A stretch of 49,123 nt of DNA from a virus, in IMG/VR virus record IMGVR_UViG_3300021960_000119, positions 1 through 49,123 of that record. The stretch is one strand, 5' to 3'. The stretch's first letter is position 1. Every line of letters begins with the position of its first letter. The position numbers and the translations under genes are program-made. Positions 1-5,793 of the stretch are shown here, in pieces. Under the pieces are notes generated by a model, which was not told the DNA's origin, searched no databases, and saw only the letters and a list, made by a program, of their open reading frames with translations.

Positions 1-271
1 CTTTTTTAGGGTTTTGTAGTTCGTCAGTTTGTCTATCAACTTCTTCTACTACTGTATCAACAACTCCGCCAACTGCGTCAGATGCTGTTTTGGTTATATC
101 AGAAGCATCTTGTAATACTGCTTGTGATACACCACCCACTGTTTTGACTGATGCGTCAACTACGCCAGTCGTTAATGCCTTTCCTCCGTCAATCACAGCA
201 CCAATTGATGCACAAGATTGAACGAAAAGAGCAAACATTATTATGCTTAATGTAGTTTTTAACATTTTCAT
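1..271 (-). CDS. Putative phage lipoprotein (3' end outside window)
   Basis: The reading frame opens with ATG at 271 and stays open to the window edge, so the C-terminus is missing. The visible 90 residues start with a short basic and hydrophobic signal (MKMLKTTLSIIMFALF) followed by a lipobox-like VQSC at about residues 17-20, then a Val/Ala/Thr/Asp-rich stretch without a domain I recognise. This fits an exported, lipid-anchored envelope protein. A good ribosome binding site (AGGAAA) lies just upstream and a TATAAATA late promoter lies at 308-315, so it is probably a late gene expressed with the adjacent curli cassette. Function unknown; spanin or curli accessory roles are possible but unsupported by sequence. 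Confidence 0.6.
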   Translation of the reverse strand, partial: MKMLKTTLSIIMFALFVQSCASIGAVIDGGKALTTGVVDASVKTVGGVSQAVLQDASDITKTASDAVGGVVDTVVEEVDRQTDELQNPKK

Positions 272-307
272 TTTCCTATAATTCGGGCACATGCCCATTA
301 ACATTAG

Positions 308-315
308 TATTTATA
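308..315 (-). promoter_or_regulatory. T4-type late promoter (TATAAATA)
   Basis: The minus strand reads TATAAATA, a perfect match to the late promoter recognised by T4 gp55 with the host RNA polymerase core. It lies between the stop of the curlin-like gene at 322 and the lipoprotein start at 271. The predicted transcription start, five bases after the box, leaves a leader of about 30 bases containing AGGAAA. Confidence 0.7.
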
Positions 316-321
316 CTTATT

Positions 322-1116
322 TTAATTGCCTTGCGTCACAGAAACAGAGCAACCCCCAACTGTTTGACAATCTTGCGTAAGAGAATAAGTTTGTGCTGTG
401 CCTCCTTGTTGAAGCATATATAAGTCTGTAGCATACAAACCATTTATTGATACTGTGGCACTATGAGTTGCACTTCCCTGTTGTATCATATCAATATCAT
501 TGTAATCATTATTGATTGTTAAAGTGAGTGTTTTGTCTTGGTTGCTTTCTTGTCTTGTGTACACATCGTTATAATCACCATAGATATAGGTGATGTTTGA
601 ATGTTCGTGTCCTGAGTTATTTGCTCGTTGACTTCCTAAAAACTTATTGTTAGAACCATGAATATCTAATCGTGTAAAATGTCCACCATATTCATAATCA
701 TCAATTGCTAACACCGTGCCTGAACTTGTTACGTGATATCCTTGATAGAAGTCTACATCATTGCTATCACCCACTACATGAAACTCAAATCTATCACTAG
801 CACAGGATGATCCTTGATTGCATGTTTGTACTATTTTTAGATTATTGTAATCGCCATCTAAATCTCCACCCCAACTTAAACCTGAACCCCATAATGTAGT
901 GTAACCAACATATGCACTATTGCCTTGTTGTGTTATGTCAACTACATTATTGGCACCACCCACACTAAAATCTACTTTGCTGTTGTATCCTGTTTGGTTT
1001 ATGGTGAGATCAAAGTTGTTGCCCACTTGATTGATATAGACTTCATTATCATTTGCTATCAGTAATGAAGCATATGATGCTAAAATCATCCATCCTATGT
1101 AAAGTAATTTATCCAT
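322..1116 (-). CDS. Curlin-like (CsgA/CsgB-type) repeat protein
   Basis: 264 residues. An N-terminal hydrophobic signal (residues 4-21) ends before NDNEVYINQVGN. The rest carries degenerate curlin repeats built on Gln-X-Gly and Asn spaced as in CsgA/CsgB, for example YINQVGNNFDLTINQTG, DITQQGN, DMIQQGS and MLQQGG. Such repeats form stacked beta-strands of extracellular amyloid. The repeats are irregular and interrupted by long Asp/Tyr/Asn-rich stretches. Two Cys pairs (CNQGSSC, CQTVGGC) are visible. It is last in the late operon and its start overlaps the FecR-domain gene by 8 bases. It is presumably a substrate of the CsgG pore encoded upstream. Family assignment is fairly sure; amyloid formation is inference. 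Confidence 0.75.
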   Translation of the reverse strand: MDKLLYIGWMILASYASLLIANDNEVYINQVGNNFDLTINQTGYNSKVDFSVGGANNVVDITQQGNSAYVGYTTLWGSGLSWGGDLDGDYNNLKIVQTCNQGSSCASDRFEFHVVGDSNDVDFYQGYHVTSSGTVLAIDDYEYGGHFTRLDIHGSNNKFLGSQRANNSGHEHSNITYIYGDYNDVYTRQESNQDKTLTLTINNDYNDIDMIQQGSATHSATVSINGLYATDLYMLQQGGTAQTYSLTQDCQTVGGCSVSVTQGN

Positions 1117-2239
1117 TTTGCCTTATAATAATTGATATTGCTCCACCCTCATTAGTTATAATTTCAGAGGTGGCACCAGTGTTATTGGTAGCATTTAATG
1201 TAGCATTTGCTTCTACACTTAATGTTATAGAAACCACACCACCTGCATCTCGGAAGAAAGTGACTTTACCACTACCTGTATCAATCAGTGTGTTGAAGTT
1301 TGTCACCTTATCAAATCCTGGAGCAGTAGTACCCTTAATGAAAGCACCATCTCCTGATGTATTTGTTGATGATCCAGATGCTCTTGCTTTTTCAATTTCT
1401 TCCATTACTTCTAGAACATCTATGAGTAAATCAACATCTAGTAAGTCTATATCCAATTCAGTAAATTCTAACTTATCTTCACTGAGTTCGGGATCTTCTT
1501 CTAGTAAGTTTTCTTCTAATAGATCAACATCTAAAAGATTATCACCACCATTAGAATTTGCTTGTTGTTCTTGTTCTTGTTTTTGTATCTCTTTGGGTGG
1601 TGATACAATAAACATGTTGTCAATCATATTTAGATCTAGATCTAAAATCAATGGTTGACTTGGTGGCGATTCAAAGTTCGGCACCATCGTTGCTTGATAT
1701 GCTTCATTCAATGTTATAGTTCCACCAGCAGTTATAACATCTATCTCACCAGATGCATTACCATTAGCATCTGGTAACAGTATGACGAGTGATCGCCCAA
1801 TCTCATCTACTGTGGTTGTAAAATCTGTTCCCCTAATTGCTATGTTTGCAGAGGGTGTTGTGATGCTGATATTCTTTTTGGGTACTAACCCAATCTTTCC
1901 TGTTGCGAATCGTGCAGTTCCAGCAGCAAATCGCATTGCCATTTTACTTTTGTTTGGATCAGGATCGTATACAACTTCGTCAATAATAACTTTACTGTGT
2001 TCTGTAAGTTTTAAAGTTGTATCATCTACAAAGGTGACTTCTAATCTACCTTGTCCTGTTCTTACATCATCAAAAGAAACGATGTCAAAGTCTAAGTCGG
2101 GATCGTATGTTTCATTTGTTCGTAAAACTTTAGATCCCGACCCAGATATATCTGTTACATCCCCGATCGGATCGGATTGCAATCCTACTGCTAGAAAACT
2201 AGTCAGTAGAATCTTGTTGAGTAATAGCAATTGTCGCAT
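1109..2239 (-). CDS. FecR-domain exported protein in curli cassette
   Basis: 376 residues. A signal-like N-terminus (MRQLLLLNKILLTSFLAVGLQS) precedes a FecR domain at about residues 30-165, with the features LEVTFVDDTTLKLTEHSKV, FAAGTARFATG and ITTPSANIAIRGTDF. This beta-sandwich fold occurs in periplasmic regulators and in secreted ligand-binding proteins. Residues about 215-290 are a Gln-rich then strongly acidic Leu/Asp/Glu stretch (LLDVDLL repeated), and the C-terminal 80 residues are Gly/Thr/Asn-rich and end in SIIIRQNG, a curlin-like ending. The gene lies between the two curlin-like genes and overlaps them by 41 and 8 bases. The ribosome binding site is weak, suggesting coupling to upstream translation. 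Its role in fibre secretion or nucleation is unknown. Confidence 0.75.
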   Translation of the reverse strand: MRQLLLLNKILLTSFLAVGLQSDPIGDVTDISGSGSKVLRTNETYDPDLDFDIVSFDDVRTGQGRLEVTFVDDTTLKLTEHSKVIIDEVVYDPDPNKSKMAMRFAAGTARFATGKIGLVPKKNISITTPSANIAIRGTDFTTTVDEIGRSLVILLPDANGNASGEIDVITAGGTITLNEAYQATMVPNFESPPSQPLILDLDLNMIDNMFIVSPPKEIQKQEQEQQANSNGGDNLLDVDLLEENLLEEDPELSEDKLEFTELDIDLLDVDLLIDVLEVMEEIEKARASGSSTNTSGDGAFIKGTTAPGFDKVTNFNTLIDTGSGKVTFFRDAGGVVSITLSVEANATLNATNNTGATSEIITNEGGAISIIIRQNG

Positions 2240-2918
2240 TGTCTGATGTTATGTCTAAATCAATATGCCCATAGCAAGTTGTTACACCTGTCGGACATGT
2301 TCCTGATTTTTGAATAATATCCATATCTACACTGTCTCCTGTGAAGTCAACGATTTGATACTGATAAGCACCATCTGTTTGACTTGATAGGATGTCATTG
2401 TCATCCCCATCAACTGTGTAATTCCATGTTGCGTCATCTACTTCTACATCAATGTCGAAAGTATTTGTTGACCCTGTAAGTGTAAGGTCAAAATCAAATC
2501 TTTCTGCAGAGGTCACATAACCCCAATCTATATCCCAAGTGTTAGAATCACCTGTTGCAGACAAATCAAAATCAGATGAGTCTGTGCTTCCAAGATATCC
2601 TATGTTCCAATCTAGAACATTAGAGTCTCCTGAAAAATATGTAGTAAAACTTGAACTATCTGATACAACAGGTCCATATAATAAGTTTTGATTTCCGATT
2701 TGATCAATATCGAAAGTTAAACCAGACCCAGTGATAACCATATCGGCAGGTGAAGATGAAAAATCATCACCACCAATTTTGTTACCATAACCTGTTTGTT
2801 GTATATTTAAGTTAAGAGTATCTCCAACTTGTTCAATGAAGACTTGGTTATCAGATGAACTTTGCGCATAAGTTCCAACCGATATAAGAGCAACTAAGAA
2901 TACTAATAGATTCTTCAT
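2199..2918 (-). CDS. Curlin-like (CsgA/CsgB-type) repeat protein
   Basis: 239 residues. A clear Sec signal peptide (MKNLLVFLVALISVGTYAQ) is followed by SSSDNQVFIEQVGD and NLNIQQTGYGNKI, matching the first repeat of the other curlin-like gene at 322-1116. Later segments (FDIDQIGNQN, DMDIIQKSG, and ATIAITQQ near the C-terminus) keep the Gln/Asn ladder, while the middle is Asp/Ser/Thr/Trp-rich with repeated DSN or STN plus TWDID/TFDID units. Start and CsgG stop overlap as ATGA, so the two are translationally coupled. It is probably a curli-type subunit or nucleator passing through CsgG. The two paralogues could act as a CsgA/CsgB pair, but which is which cannot be told. Confidence 0.75.
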   Translation of the reverse strand: MKNLLVFLVALISVGTYAQSSSDNQVFIEQVGDTLNLNIQQTGYGNKIGGDDFSSSPADMVITGSGLTFDIDQIGNQNLLYGPVVSDSSSFTTYFSGDSNVLDWNIGYLGSTDSSDFDLSATGDSNTWDIDWGYVTSAERFDFDLTLTGSTNTFDIDVEVDDATWNYTVDGDDNDILSSQTDGAYQYQIVDFTGDSVDMDIIQKSGTCPTGVTTCYGHIDLDITSDNATIAITQQDSTD

Positions 2919-3808
2919 GTTTCTTCTCCGTTTATTTCTTCATTAGAGGAACGAGATTTCCAATAACCTCTTTCCTCACCTTGTGTTATAATGCCGATCA
3001 CTGCTTGCTCTATGGCAGCACGAACAGCATAAGTCACACTCTCATTCTCAGAGATACCATCTTCTATTTCAACTAGTTTAGTATCCATGTCAACAAATCG
3101 AAATACATCGAATCCTTGTGCCACGGATAAAACTGTTTTGTATGACTGAACATTCATAAGAACTTCTCCAGTCGATACTGATATTGCTCGTAATGATACT
3201 ACAACAGCATCCCTACGATATTGTTGGCTGGCACCGACACCTAAGTATCTGGCACCATTACCACCTGTTTCGATATTGGTATCATATCCAATAATACCTC
3301 CATCAAAAATCATTCCTGCGAATAGTAAAGGTTGCAATGCTTCCTTTTCATCTTCCACATCTAAATATGTTTGTCTAGTAGATTTAACAATCTGTCTTTC
3401 TCTCACTAGATAATCTGTAATGGATCTATCCACTACTCTAAACCATTTACCATTTCCTGCTGTTTTTAAAGCATCAATGAGTAATGCTTCTCCACCTTGT
3501 GTTACTGCTGTGGAAAAGTCTGCTAAATTTTGTTTGGACTTTCTCTGTCCTGTTTTATCTTGGAAACTATAAACTGCGATTACATATGGATTAGTTATGG
3601 GTGCTGGTAGATCTCTTAATTGTTTATGAGTTGGAAGTGCAATGGTTGTTGGTTTCTCAACACAAGGAACAAACTGTTCATAAGTTGATCCATAGATATC
3701 TTTGACTTGAAACTTGCCATCTGCTTCTACGCAATCTAATACTCGTGGGTTGGGCAAACTAGCACAACCTGACATAATGAGTATGATTGCTAAGAGTGAT
3801 CTAACCAC
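2915..3808 (-). CDS. csgG: CsgG-like curli secretion pore lipoprotein
   Basis: About 297 residues. It begins with a lipoprotein signal (SLLAIILIMSGCAS, lipobox Cys about residue 15). The mature part aligns with CsgG by eye: LPAPITNPYVIAVYSFQDKT, then STAVTQGGEALLIDAL, WFRVVDR, VRERQIVKSTRQ and GGIIGYDTNIETGG. CsgG forms the nonameric outer-membrane channel for curli subunits. The open frame can start at GTG 3817, but the GTG at 3808 has AGGTGG five bases upstream and is preferred. The gene overlaps the CsgF stop and the downstream curlin start. From memory, CsgG/CsgF homologues have been reported in SAR11 myophages. A complete pore is plausible since the core domain is full length. Confidence 0.88.
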   Translation of the reverse strand: MVRSLLAIILIMSGCASLPNPRVLDCVEADGKFQVKDIYGSTYEQFVPCVEKPTTIALPTHKQLRDLPAPITNPYVIAVYSFQDKTGQRKSKQNLADFSTAVTQGGEALLIDALKTAGNGKWFRVVDRSITDYLVRERQIVKSTRQTYLDVEDEKEALQPLLFAGMIFDGGIIGYDTNIETGGNGARYLGVGASQQYRRDAVVVSLRAISVSTGEVLMNVQSYKTVLSVAQGFDVFRFVDMDTKLVEIEDGISENESVTYAVRAAIEQAVIGIITQGEERGYWKSRSSNEEINGEET

Positions 3809-4379
3809 CGAGTCCACCTATGGTACCAGCACCTATGGGTATTGTAATTGTTGTTGTAGATCCTTCAGCATCGACAATAGTCAATACGATAACTTCATCA
3901 CCTTCTACACAACCTGTCATATCACCCATACATAATGTTTTCTCATAGGTTACAGTGTTTCCTTCGATAAGGAATGTACCAAATGTACTTCCTTCGCCAC
4001 TAAACAATGCAGTGACTAAGTCTTTTGATATTTGTGAATAAATCCTAGATTCTAAGTTTCTCATAAACTTTGCAAGTGTAGTATTGTCTGCATCTCTTTC
4101 TGCTTGTCTGAGTGCTGCTTCTATATCTTCTTCTATCTTATCTCTTCTTGCTTTCTCTTGATTATCAATAGTTAGATAATGCGATGATGTTCCTACACCA
4201 CTGAATGAGGGGTTCTTAAATTGCTGTACTAATTGATCAGCAGTTACATAAGATGCTAGAAACATAGTCAACAATAAGATAAATGCTGTAAACAATCCTA
4301 TAATTGTATGTTCTAATGTTTTGTTTTTGTACAAAGACATTGCATTTTTGAATGCTTTATTTTGACTTTGACTTCTCAT
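3801..4379 (-). CDS. csgF: CsgF-like curli assembly protein
   Basis: 192 residues. After a hydrophobic segment (residues about 27-47) comes DQLVQQFKNPSFSG, matching the N-terminus of mature CsgF (FQFRNPNFGG), the part that plugs into the CsgG channel. The C-terminal region (IYSQISKDLVTALFSGEG, then VTYEK and TIVDAEGSTTTITIPIG) matches the CsgF pattern of a short helix and beta-strands. The protein has about 26 extra residues before the hydrophobic segment; an internal ATG at 4340 would shorten it, but the first ATG has AGAGGG upstream. The gene overlaps its neighbours by 8 to 23 bases. In E. coli, CsgF couples secretion to nucleation at the cell surface. Confidence 0.85.
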   Translation of the reverse strand: MRSQSQNKAFKNAMSLYKNKTLEHTIIGLFTAFILLLTMFLASYVTADQLVQQFKNPSFSGVGTSSHYLTIDNQEKARRDKIEEDIEAALRQAERDADNTTLAKFMRNLESRIYSQISKDLVTALFSGEGSTFGTFLIEGNTVTYEKTLCMGDMTGCVEGDEVIVLTIVDAEGSTTTITIPIGAGTIGGLGG

Positions 4380-4644
4380 TCTTACCCTCTTCTAACAATT
4401 TTTGTCTTTCTCGATATTCTAATACGACATTTACTTTTTGCTGTAGTCGTATCATATCTTGATCTAGCATACGAGTTTGATCTATCACTCGTATCAATGC
4501 AAAATGCATCTTTTCTATTTGGGGTTCTATGTGTTCACCAATAAAATTCCATACAAAATACACAAAGTATCCCAATCCACCCATTGCAACAACAGGAAAC
4601 CCATATTGACTGATCAAATCTACTATTGCGGATGGGTCTTCCAT
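4357..4644 (-). CDS. Small membrane protein, holin-like topology
   Basis: 95 residues. One hydrophobic segment (about residues 13-35, YGFPVVAMGGLGYFVYFVW) is followed by an amphipathic, probably coiled-coil helix (RMLDQDMIRLQQKVNVVL) and a Lys/Glu-rich tail. Layout and key residues resemble the protein at 4820-5116, suggesting tandem duplication. The start overlaps the preceding small gene as TAATG, and the 3' end runs 23 bases into CsgF. Single-span N-terminal anchor plus coiled coil fits a phage holin or a membrane scaffold; the link to CsgG/CsgF suggests a role in export or lysis, which is inference. Confidence 0.6.
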   Translation of the reverse strand: MEDPSAIVDLISQYGFPVVAMGGLGYFVYFVWNFIGEHIEPQIEKMHFALIRVIDQTRMLDQDMIRLQQKVNVVLEYRERQKLLEEGKNEKSKSK

Positions 4645-4820
4645 TACTCTTCATCCTTTTGAATTTTTGATATTTTAGTCAATACTTCTGCGATTGCCAT
4701 TACTTCTTCGACATTAACTGCCTCTTCTGGTATCGTTGCTGGTGTAACAACAACCTCTTCCTCTACGACTTCTTCATTGCAGAGTGCAAAGTATAATAAT
4801 CCTATAACTAAAAATTCCAT
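4644..4820 (-). CDS. Small acidic membrane-anchored protein
   Basis: 58 residues, ATG at 4820 and TAA at 4646-4644. A short hydrophobic N-terminus (MEFLVIGLLYFALC) is followed by a Glu/Val-rich stretch and a helical tail (EEVMAIAEVLTKISKIQ). Both junctions are TAATG overlaps, so it sits in an unbroken translational chain between two related membrane proteins, which is the best evidence that it is real. The Cys at residue 14 could be lipidated, although the lipobox is poor. Function unknown. Confidence 0.6.
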   Translation of the reverse strand: MEFLVIGLLYFALCNEEVVEEEVVVTPATIPEEAVNVEEVMAIAEVLTKISKIQKDEE

Positions 4821-5116
4821 TAATCTCTCCTCACATCAAGTTTACCATCTTCAATAAAGTTTTCACTTCGAGCGATTCTATCGATATCTGGTCTTAATTC
4901 TAATGCACTACTTACCAAAAGATCTATCTTGATCATTTCGTTTGCCATAGTTCTTGCTCTGTTTTCCAGAGACTCACAAAACATAGTAAGGGTTGCGATT
5001 GAATCAACAATTCCTTGCATAATCTGTTTTATAACTAAGAAGATGAAGAATCCCGATGCTAATGCCATAGCAATCGGTGCTCCAAGATCACCTACTAATT
5101 GAAAAAAAGTTTCCAT
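4820..5116 (-). CDS. Small membrane protein, holin-like topology
   Basis: 98 residues. One long hydrophobic helix (about residues 10-35, GAPIAMALASGFFIFLVI) is followed by an amphipathic helix (RTMANEMIKIDLLVSSALELR) and a charged tail. It resembles the protein at 4357-4644 in size, topology and the D-MI-L-V-LE-R spacing, so the two look paralogous. Its start lies 29 bases inside the end of the IscA-like gene, so it is translated from the same late message. A holin or other lysis or membrane function is possible; no direct evidence. Confidence 0.6.
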   Translation of the reverse strand: METFFQLVGDLGAPIAMALASGFFIFLVIKQIMQGIVDSIATLTMFCESLENRARTMANEMIKIDLLVSSALELRPDIDRIARSENFIEDGKLDVRRD

Positions 5117-5438
5117 TCTCTAACCCATTTATTGTAAAGGACTCACCGCAACCACATGTTGCTCCAGTGTTTGGATTTACAAAATCGAATCGACTGTTGA
5201 GTCCTTCTGTTATATAATCCAATGCTAATCCATTCAGGTGAGGAGCAGATAGTGAATCTATTGCTACTTTGAATTTACCAAAGTCACTTATTACATCATC
5301 TTCTTGTATTTGATAAAGGTAGTCGAATACATACTTCCAACCATTGCATCCTGCAGGTTGAATGCCTATCCTAACTCCTTCCTTGCTTTTTGTCTTTTCT
5401 AACAATGCTTCTATTGCTCTGTCAGTAATTTCAATCAT
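5088..5438 (-). CDS. iscA: A-type Fe-S cluster carrier (IscA/HesB family)
   Basis: 116 residues, the usual size. The three cluster-binding cysteines are present: C31 in PAGCNGW and C95/C97 in the C-terminal TCGCGESF motif. The fold pattern (DRAIEALLEK at the N-terminus, GVRIGIQPAGC, then LDYITEGLNSRFDFVNPN) is typical. Such proteins pass Fe-S clusters to client enzymes. It is the first gene of the late curli operon, directly behind a TATAAATA promoter; start codon and predicted transcription start coincide, so the message may be leaderless. An IscU-like scaffold is encoded at 25106-25510. Confidence 0.9.
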   Translation of the reverse strand: MIEITDRAIEALLEKTKSKEGVRIGIQPAGCNGWKYVFDYLYQIQEDDVISDFGKFKVAIDSLSAPHLNGLALDYITEGLNSRFDFVNPNTGATCGCGESFTINGLENGNFFSISR

Positions 5439-5443
5439 ACCAT

Positions 5444-5451
5444 TATTTATA
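5444..5451 (-). promoter_or_regulatory. T4-type late promoter (TATAAATA), possible leaderless start
   Basis: A perfect TATAAATA on the minus strand ends five bases before the ATG of the IscA-like gene at 5438. In T4 late promoters the box covers about -13 to -6, which puts +1 on the A of this ATG. It should drive the whole chain of overlapping genes from IscA to the second curlin-like gene. Confidence 0.7.
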
Positions 5452-5525: not shown

Positions 5526-5750
5526 ATGGCAAATTACAACACACCCAAGTCTGGGTTCGAAATAAGAGCAGATCTGCTCTCACAAGCACAAGGTCTTTTA
5601 GAGATGAATATCGAAAGGGATAATTCTAAGGTGTATCAACACAATGAGAATTTTCCTAATGATAAGAAAGGACTAGGTGAACAACATATCTCACCAGAAC
5701 AAGTTATCGCAGTTGCACGACAACTCAATGAATTTGTAAACGAGAAATAA
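5526..5750 (+). CDS. Conserved-looking small soluble protein
   Basis: 74 residues, the only convincing plus-strand gene in the window. The N-terminus MANYNTPKSGFEIRADLL and the region ISPEQVIAVARQLNEFVNEK suggest a small helical protein; I recall similar short proteins in T4-like marine phages, but no function. A strong AGGAGG Shine-Dalgarno five bases before the ATG and a hairpin right after the stop support a real, highly translated gene. There is no signal peptide or membrane segment. Confidence 0.75.
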   Translation: MANYNTPKSGFEIRADLLSQAQGLLEMNIERDNSKVYQHNENFPNDKKGLGEQHISPEQVIAVARQLNEFVNEK

Positions 5751-5756
5751 AAAAAA

Positions 5757-5773
5757 GGGGAGCAATGCTCCCC
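5757..5773. terminator. Bidirectional rho-independent terminator
   Basis: GGGGAGC, loop AAT, GCTCCCC forms a perfect seven-base-pair hairpin between the converging genes at 5526-5750 and 5794-6078. Read on the minus strand it is followed by eight T residues, a strong intrinsic terminator for the replication operon. On the plus strand the following TTCTC is weaker. Confidence 0.85.
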
Positions 5774-5793
5774 TTCTCGAGATTGCTTAGAAA

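Follow-up and report, generated by a model that had tools for sequence, protein, structure and literature searches.

Curli genes have already been described in pelagiphages, in which they follow the order CsgF–CsgG–CsgA/B–FecR–CsgA/B–cyclase (Wittmers 2022, PMC9599517), and published metatranscriptomes show that the relatives are expressed (PMC9599517). Cultures of the phage Melnitz showed no clumping by cytometry or TEM (Buchholz et al., PMC9004378). Among bacteria, CsgE belongs to the Gammaproteobacteria and Bacteroidetes; curli-bearing Alphaproteobacteria are without it (PMC3521004). Here we analysed a curli gene chain in a T4-like marine myophage fragment (IMGVR_UViG_3300021960_000119) of 49,123 nt, the whole of which we refer to as the window. 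The curli set is not new in kind; such sets have already been published for SAR11 phages. The original prediction, that CsgG and CsgF are known in SAR11 myophages, stands insofar as a CsgF, CsgG and curlin set lies in a SAR11-myophage-like genome, but it missed the publication of the curlins, FecR and cyclase (PMC9599517).

The chain runs on the minus strand from position 5438 to 322 and encodes, in order, one IscA-like and three small proteins, then CsgF and CsgG, and finally a FecR-domain protein flanked by two curlin-repeat proteins. Neighbouring genes overlap or abut. The features of the locus are as follows.

5752..5778, minus strand: terminator-like hairpin (12-pair stem, loop of 3) with a T-run, upstream of the operon and on the same strand
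5444..5451, minus strand: T4-type late promoter element TATAAATA, 5 nt ahead of the first ATG in the chain
5088..5438, minus strand: IscA-like Fe–S protein, accessory, gene 1 of the chain (PF01521, E = 2.4e-14; TIGR00049, E = 1.4e-28)
4820..5116, minus strand: M1, small membrane protein of 98 aa, an N-terminal transmembrane (TM) segment and then an amphipathic/coiled helix (phrog_18771, E = 2e-23)
4644..4820, minus strand: 58-aa protein with a hydrophobic N terminus, found in 4 loci, close relatives only
4357..4644, minus strand: M3, small membrane protein, paralogue of M1 (phrog_18771, E = 5.5e-26)
3801..4379, minus strand: CsgF homologue, 192 aa, VQQFKNPSF motif, N terminus longer than usual (PF10614, E = 4.4e-12, over the cut-off; phrog_35372, E = 1.2e-37)
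2915..3817, minus strand: CsgG homologue, 300 aa, lipoprotein (lipobox ...MSGC), GTG start (PF03783, E = 4.8e-48)
2199..2918, minus strand: curlin-like protein 1 (cur1), 239 aa, signal peptide, predicted to be β-rich (orthologues match PF07012)
1109..2239, minus strand: exported FecR-domain protein with a curlin-like C-terminal strand (PF04773, E = 8e-12)
322..1116, minus strand: curlin-like protein 2 (cur2), 264 aa (weak PF07012 match, E = 0.043; CsgA, E = 0.019)
308..315, minus strand: second late-promoter element TATAAATA, preceding the lipoprotein gene (motif match)
2..304, minus strand: small lipoprotein (lipobox ...FVQSC), cut at the window end, found in 2 loci including the nearest relative (L004)

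The sequence shows that the operon encodes CsgG (a lipoprotein pore) and CsgF, two secreted curlin-repeat proteins, and a FecR protein that is exported and ends in the β-strand signature of the curlins. It is probably a type VIII secretion (curli) module carried by a phage, like those known from SAR11 and OM43 myophages, with curlin export and with the FecR tail as nucleator, anchor or gate. The IscA-like gene lies within the operon yet is not part of its core, because just 10 of the 81 loci have it. At the other end, the operon extends past position 322, where the small lipoprotein gene (2–304) comes next. For all seven genes tested, dN/dS against L004 is 0.07–0.16, and these genes are therefore under purifying selection.

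The late-promoter element TATAAATA occurs 10 times in the window, each time on the coding (minus) strand, against an expected 4.1 on both strands. Among the 53 related loci with small membrane genes, 37 carry it immediately ahead of the operon (chance expectation around 1.4%), and it lies upstream of CsgG or FecR in 0 of 168 cases; the arrangement of terminator, late promoter and ATG also occurs in L007, L010 and L015. By sequence, the operon is a transcription unit of its own, with a T4-type late promoter. Because this promoter is conserved upstream, late expression is supported, in line with the original prediction of a late operon. The promoter is new relative to the published pelagiphage modules: the main text of the pelagiphage curli publications mentions neither it nor the C-terminal curlin-like strand of the FecR protein.

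CsgF and CsgG had been called as clear homologues, and the profile matches and lipobox listed above confirm both. CsgF is present in 79 of 81 loci. The CsgG equivalog model matches the window CsgG at E = 1.2e-49, although this is under the curated cut-off of the model, and the protein is 42% identical to the CsgG of HTVC008M; in a CsgG tree, a 100/100 branch splits the phage proteins from 43 bacterial ones. CsgE is absent, as had been claimed, with no Pfam match among the ten window proteins and none for PF10627 (CsgE) in 34 related viral records. PF10627 is also missing in eight curli-bearing genomes of bacterial relatives; with the published alphaproteobacterial distribution (PMC3521004), this led us to reject the loss of CsgE as a phage peculiarity.

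The presence of two curlin-repeat proteins in the overlapping gene chain was borne out. The matches of cur1 itself are weak (CsgA, E = 0.0013 in NCBIfam; no Pfam hit), but the curlin assignment is sound because 18 of 21 aligned orthologues match PF07012 (best E = 2e-12); a profile search of the loci placed cur2 in one group with curlin 1. Signal peptides of the curlins were judged by eye. The AlphaFold model of cur1 (mean pLDDT of 84) is nearly all β past the signal peptide, and a Foldseek search of the PDB with the curlin model returned no significant match. The phage curlins are divergent in sequence.

Wherever the contig reaches, the order CsgF–CsgG–curlin–FecR–curlin is essentially invariant in 80–81 viral loci, and the comparison across relatives that the original prediction proposed found FecR and curlins both near-universal. 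A CHASE2 adenylate cyclase comes next in 37 of the 41 loci that could be tested, the count being restricted by contig ends to loci with room for the gene. The window ends around 320 bases past curlin 2 and does not itself include a cyclase; in L004, the cyclase gene follows the small lipoprotein gene. One alternative to a curli export module is a periplasmic sensing role for the FecR protein paired with the cyclase: the passage or jamming of curlins would raise the cAMP level of the infected cell, and fibres would be secondary. The frequent adjacency of the cyclase would fit such a pair, as would the retention of catalytic-domain motifs in most cyclase copies and the two alphaproteobacterial loci (L186 and L189) in which FecR and cyclase adjoin without nearby curli. 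However, four loci with room keep FecR without the cyclase and no cAMP target was identified, and we consider this alternative unlikely.

A second alternative turns on the pore and on the genes that precede it. Members of the M family (M1 and/or M3) occur in 45 of 81 loci, and the genes at the published histidine-kinase position before CsgF encode 95–98-aa one-TM proteins without kinase matches; no kinase domain was found in the M proteins by Pfam, phrog and NCBIfam profile comparisons. The lack of a kinase domain in these small membrane proteins, whose position is that of the published ‘histidine kinases’, is new here. In Pfam, the M proteins have weak, unrelated matches only (YvrJ is the commonest), and a holin reading of them is not established. 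M3 weakly matches the holin family phrog_4898 (E = 0.0028). CsgG and CsgF might nevertheless form a pore in the outer membrane that lacks a gate and serves lysis timing or nutrient uptake, with the curlin-like proteins secondary: a pinholin/secretin role has been proposed for Melnitz (PMC9004378), no CsgE gate was found, and small one-TM proteins, with that weak holin match, adjoin the pore genes. The published argument was built on missing curlins (PMC9004378), but curlins are present, including in HTVC008M and Melnitz, and Alphaproteobacteria with curli likewise lack CsgE (PMC3521004). As two curlin genes and FecR are retained with the pore almost without exception, under purifying selection, outer-membrane opening for lysis, which had been among the roles suggested, is not supported as the main one. 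Curlins and pore are conserved in nearly every relative, and export of subunits therefore fits better than a bare pore, which we regard as distinctly unlikely.

The FecR protein has a hydrophobic N terminus (signal peptide) and no later stretch of TM strength. Its FecR domain resembles the periplasmic signalling domain of PupR (best structural match 6ovk, E = 5e-4), and the signal peptide takes the place of the anti-sigma part: neither an anti-sigma N-terminal domain (among 20 members, the other Pfam matches are single weak ones) nor a central TM helix was found. Across 385 alphaproteobacterial genomes, many of the open frames that match the FecR domain are 500 to several thousand residues long and do not look like regulators; the window protein has a weak NCBIfam match (E = 7e-4) to a Leptospira FecR-domain protein that is a surface adhesin. 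A search for close relatives in these 385 and in 105 Hyphomonas-family genomes found only one Hyphomonas. An (iron-dependent) regulator of curli expression, as proposed by Wittmers et al. (PMC9599517) and suggested by the domain name and the match to the PupR anti-sigma signalling domain, is very unlikely because only the periplasmic FecR domain is held in common: the protein has a signal peptide but lacks the cytoplasmic anti-sigma part, and no sigma-factor gene was recognised next to FecR.

The C terminus of the FecR protein carries a curlin-like strand. A terminal strand motif occurs in 61 of 62–63 phage FecRs (NAITINQTN in HTVC008M, NEVTIIQIN in Melnitz) versus 12 of 495 background open reading frames (2.4%), and in the curlins themselves (48 of 66 for curlin 1; 47 of 54 for curlin 2). 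Against phage curlin profiles, the tail scored above all 30 column shuffles (P ~0.002), although the likeness is one repeat long with a low profile probability (8–15%), and the signal-peptide tile scored as well as the tail against curlin 1. The tail does not score against bacterial curlins and has low AlphaFold confidence. A Pfam scan found a curlin repeat in 0 of 20 FecR proteins; the evidence for the tail is therefore a common strand motif together with weak similarity at the profile level, without a family hit. A FecR protein with a signal peptide and without an anti-sigma part, ending in a curlin-like strand, is new here.

We read this protein, from these sequence features, as a putative exported nucleator, anchor or gate; it appears to be an exported component of the fibre machinery, not the iron regulator of earlier descriptions. 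Under the curli export reading, the CsgG pore would assemble in the outer membrane late in infection and, like its counterparts in curli-bearing Alphaproteobacteria, would do so without CsgE. Both curlins would leave through this pore and polymerise into amyloid fibres on the infected cell's surface. The FecR protein may be held at the envelope by its folded domain while its curlin-like tail serves as fibre nucleator, anchor or gate, and the cyclase may monitor assembly through its periplasmic CHASE2 sensor. Any gain for the phage is unproven; it might lie, for example, in keeping neighbour cells close to a cell that is lysing or in shutting out competing phages. More speculatively, the phage ‘FecR’ could be a new, exported curli component that joins a folded FecR domain to one curlin-like strand at its end, takes over from CsgB/CsgE in nucleating or gating the export of amyloid through CsgG, and is coupled to an assembly-sensing CHASE2 cyclase; we hold this stronger claim as a tentative possibility. 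If it is true, the module is a viral curli lineage with its own assembly logic. If infected SAR11 cells export fibres just before lysis, cell–cell sticking and phage encounter would change in very abundant ocean bacteria. Re-reading FecR as an exported fibre component in a fixed order beside the curlins also yields a testable list of a few envelope proteins.

The locus shares with the pelagiphage type VIII secretion/curli module (Wittmers et al. 2022, PMC9599517; Zaragoza-Solas et al. 2020, PMC7029224) the order CsgF–CsgG–curlin–FecR–curlin, a T4-like myophage background, the lack of CsgC, CsgD and CsgE, and a cyclase next in relatives; a histidine kinase is called before CsgF there, whereas kinase-free small genes and a front IscA-like gene are found here. 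The cultured phages HTVC008M (KC465899) and Melnitz (MZ577097) have the same core gene order, with CsgG around 42% identical, but no adjacent IscA-like gene, and their cyclase is present at the curli operon, whereas any cyclase of the operon studied here would lie past the window end. With FecR/PupR anti-sigma regulators, the window protein shares the FecR domain fold, but the anti-sigma domain and internal TM helix are theirs; the window protein has neither and is exported by a signal peptide. Alphaproteobacterial curli operons resemble the locus in having CsgF, CsgG and curlins without CsgE. As had been suspected, FecR is unusual in bacterial curli operons: unlike the phages, 66 of 67 bacterial curli loci (mostly alphaproteobacterial) have neither FecR nor a CHASE2 cyclase, and their CsgGs fall across the 100/100 branch. 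The one with FecR, in Hyphomonas sp. TMED17 (L088; a 705-kb bacterial contig), has a single curlin, no M genes, a FecR without the curlin-like tail and a long branch, but it carries a cyclase homologue (CHASE2, E = 3e-33; cyclase, E = 8e-19) in the order CsgF–CsgG–curlin–FecR–CHASE2 cyclase.

The virus record, 49,123 bases long, comes from a T4-like myophage, with matches to terminase, portal, major head, sheath, clamp loader, sliding clamp and the translation repressor RegA, every one of them on the minus strand. The curli gene chain lies at its left end.

Features of the curli module in the window
5444-5451, T4-type late element TATAAATA, 5 nt ahead of the first ATG of the chain
5438 down to 322, minus strand, gene chain
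4820-5116 and 4357-4644, minus strand, small membrane proteins M1 and M3
CsgF, PF10614, E 4.4e-12, over the Pfam cut-off
CsgG, PF03783, E 4.8e-48, over the Pfam cut-off
FecR protein, PF04773, E 8e-12, over the Pfam cut-off

The original prediction of an operon with CsgF, CsgG, two curlin-like proteins and a FecR protein is confirmed. The window's two curlin-like proteins match curlin models weakly themselves; Curlin_rpt is matched by 18 of 21 orthologues of curlin 1 (best 2e-12), and the predicted model of curlin 1 is nearly all beta past the signal peptide (mean pLDDT 84). Viral contigs searched with CsgG yielded 80 loci, which with the window make 81. By profile searches over their ORFs, 79 of these contain CsgF, 78 curlins, 66 FecR and 45 small membrane proteins; missing genes mostly reflect contig ends. 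The order CsgF–CsgG–curlin–FecR–curlin is essentially unbroken, and 37 of the 41 loci with room for it continue with a CHASE2 adenylate cyclase. The window stops around 320 bases past curlin 2 and the cyclase is not inside it; in the nearest relative with a whole operon (L004), the cyclase follows the same small lipoprotein gene that the window has. The cultured phages HTVC008M and Melnitz share the same core.

Between the window and L004, dN/dS is 0.07–0.16 in all seven genes compared. Curlin 2 (322-1116 in the window, 9712-10506 in L004) has a dS of 0.24, versus 1.0–1.9 for the other six genes, which suggests a recent exchange of this gene between the two phages. The IscA-like gene (5088-5438) heads the operon in only 10 of 81 loci; in five others (L007, L008, L010, L015 and L016) a gene recognised by eye as NifU/IscU-like lies past curlin 2 instead. 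OR851715.1 (1,499 bases, labelled Salmonella phage S.Kent 1-2-1) encodes a CsgG 40% identical to that of the window, and is more likely to be host or other DNA than phage.

In earlier work, CsgF and CsgG were reported in pelagimyophages, with ‘sibling capture’ suggested (Zaragoza-Solas et al. 2020, PMC7029224); curlins were held to be missing, a lysis role was proposed and no clumping was observed (Buchholz et al. 2022, PMC9004378); and curlins, FecR, cyclase and ‘histidine kinases’ were identified in podo- and myophages, FecR being interpreted as an iron-dependent regulator (Wittmers et al. 2022, PMC9599517). The gene set is therefore already published, and this genome adds a member. Our corrections and additions to the published picture are three: a late promoter, an exported FecR protein with a curlin-like tail, and small genes without a kinase.

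That the operon is late in this phage, as predicted, is supported by the element at its front, by related loci and by a preceding terminator-like hairpin, which also occurs in L007, L010 and L015. The late element is present 10 times in the window, always on the coding strand (4.1 expected on both strands). Of 53 loci of the small-membrane-gene type, 37 have it ahead of their first gene, versus 1.4% of random windows. It is rare in loci that start with CsgF (4 of 39) and, among related loci, never lies upstream of CsgG or FecR. In 13 loci, among them L002, L004, L007, L010, L015 and L018, it is just 5 nt from the start codon; by analogy with T4 promoters, this spacing suggests that the start codon may be at or near the transcription start, with the first gene possibly on a leaderless message. 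A plus-strand ORF of 74 aa (5526-5750) with a good ribosome site lies between the late promoter and an opposite-strand terminator, and is directed away from the operon.

M1 and M3 are paralogues of 95–98 aa, each with one N-terminal transmembrane segment and an amphipathic helix. Neither has a kinase match in Pfam or NCBIfam, and M3 has a weak holin match. Genes at this position were named histidine kinases (PMC9599517); M1 and M3 are not kinases, a claim about these two rather than about the genes of that study.

FecR is, as predicted, unusual in bacterial curli operons. Bacterial genomes searched with CsgG gave 80 loci, 13 of them on what look like phage contigs in bacterial bins. Among the 67 left, FecR and cyclase occur in one, on a 705-kb contig of Hyphomonas sp. 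TMED17, which is also the only one of 37 of these genomes searched whole to encode a FecR of the phage-module kind. This FecR stands well apart in a search of 385 alphaproteobacterial genomes, at 234 bits versus 135 for the next best. In a maximum-likelihood CsgG tree, a 100/100 branch parts 43 bacterial CsgGs from those of phages and Hyphomonas; with a very long Hyphomonas row, the tree does not tell donor from recipient. These sequence comparisons single out FecR as a hallmark of the phage curli module. Phage-type curli loci on contigs in Bacteroidetes, Synechococcus, Rhodobacteraceae, Pirellulales and Pelagibacter MAGs (L082–L087, L089–L094 and L102) are probably phage contigs put into the wrong bins. 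In Alphaproteobacteria, many FecR-domain matches (L163–L191) fall within open frames of 500 to nearly 7,000 codons, as if the domain stood at the head of large surface proteins.

At its N-terminus the phage FecR protein has a signal peptide, followed by one FecR domain, a variable linker with many LDxDFL-like repeats and a tail rich in beta structure. A hydrophobic-x-hydrophobic-x-Q strand forms the last residues of 61 of 63 complete copies, all but the Hyphomonas copy and one that has unread residues. This strand also ends 48 of 66 first curlins and 47 of 54 second curlins, against just 12 of 495 other ORFs of these loci; the counts come from copies related by descent and are hence not independent. 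Profile comparison of the FecR tail with phage curlins gave P ~0.002 and beat all 30 column shuffles, at a low absolute probability. We infer that the protein is an exported part of a fibre machine, serving as its nucleator, anchor or gate; a folded FecR domain that exceeds the size of the pore and is attached to a substrate-like strand would suit a gate or tether.

Gene content, order, promoter, signal sequences and selection are established for the module. On the proposed mechanism, a CsgG/CsgF pore would be assembled late in infection, the two curlins would be exported and fibres would form on the surface, with FecR as nucleator, anchor or gate and the cyclase as sensor; the interpretation in the original prediction, which included late export of amyloid, is partly supported. 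One rival pairs FecR with the cyclase as a sensor. Another, a bare pore for lysis, has to accommodate curlins in nearly every locus. The third takes FecR as a regulator, and in fold its FecR domain does have its best match in PupR's periplasmic signalling domain (Foldseek E 5e-4); in contrast to the FecR/PupR regulators, however, the phage protein has neither the anti-sigma part nor the inner transmembrane helix.
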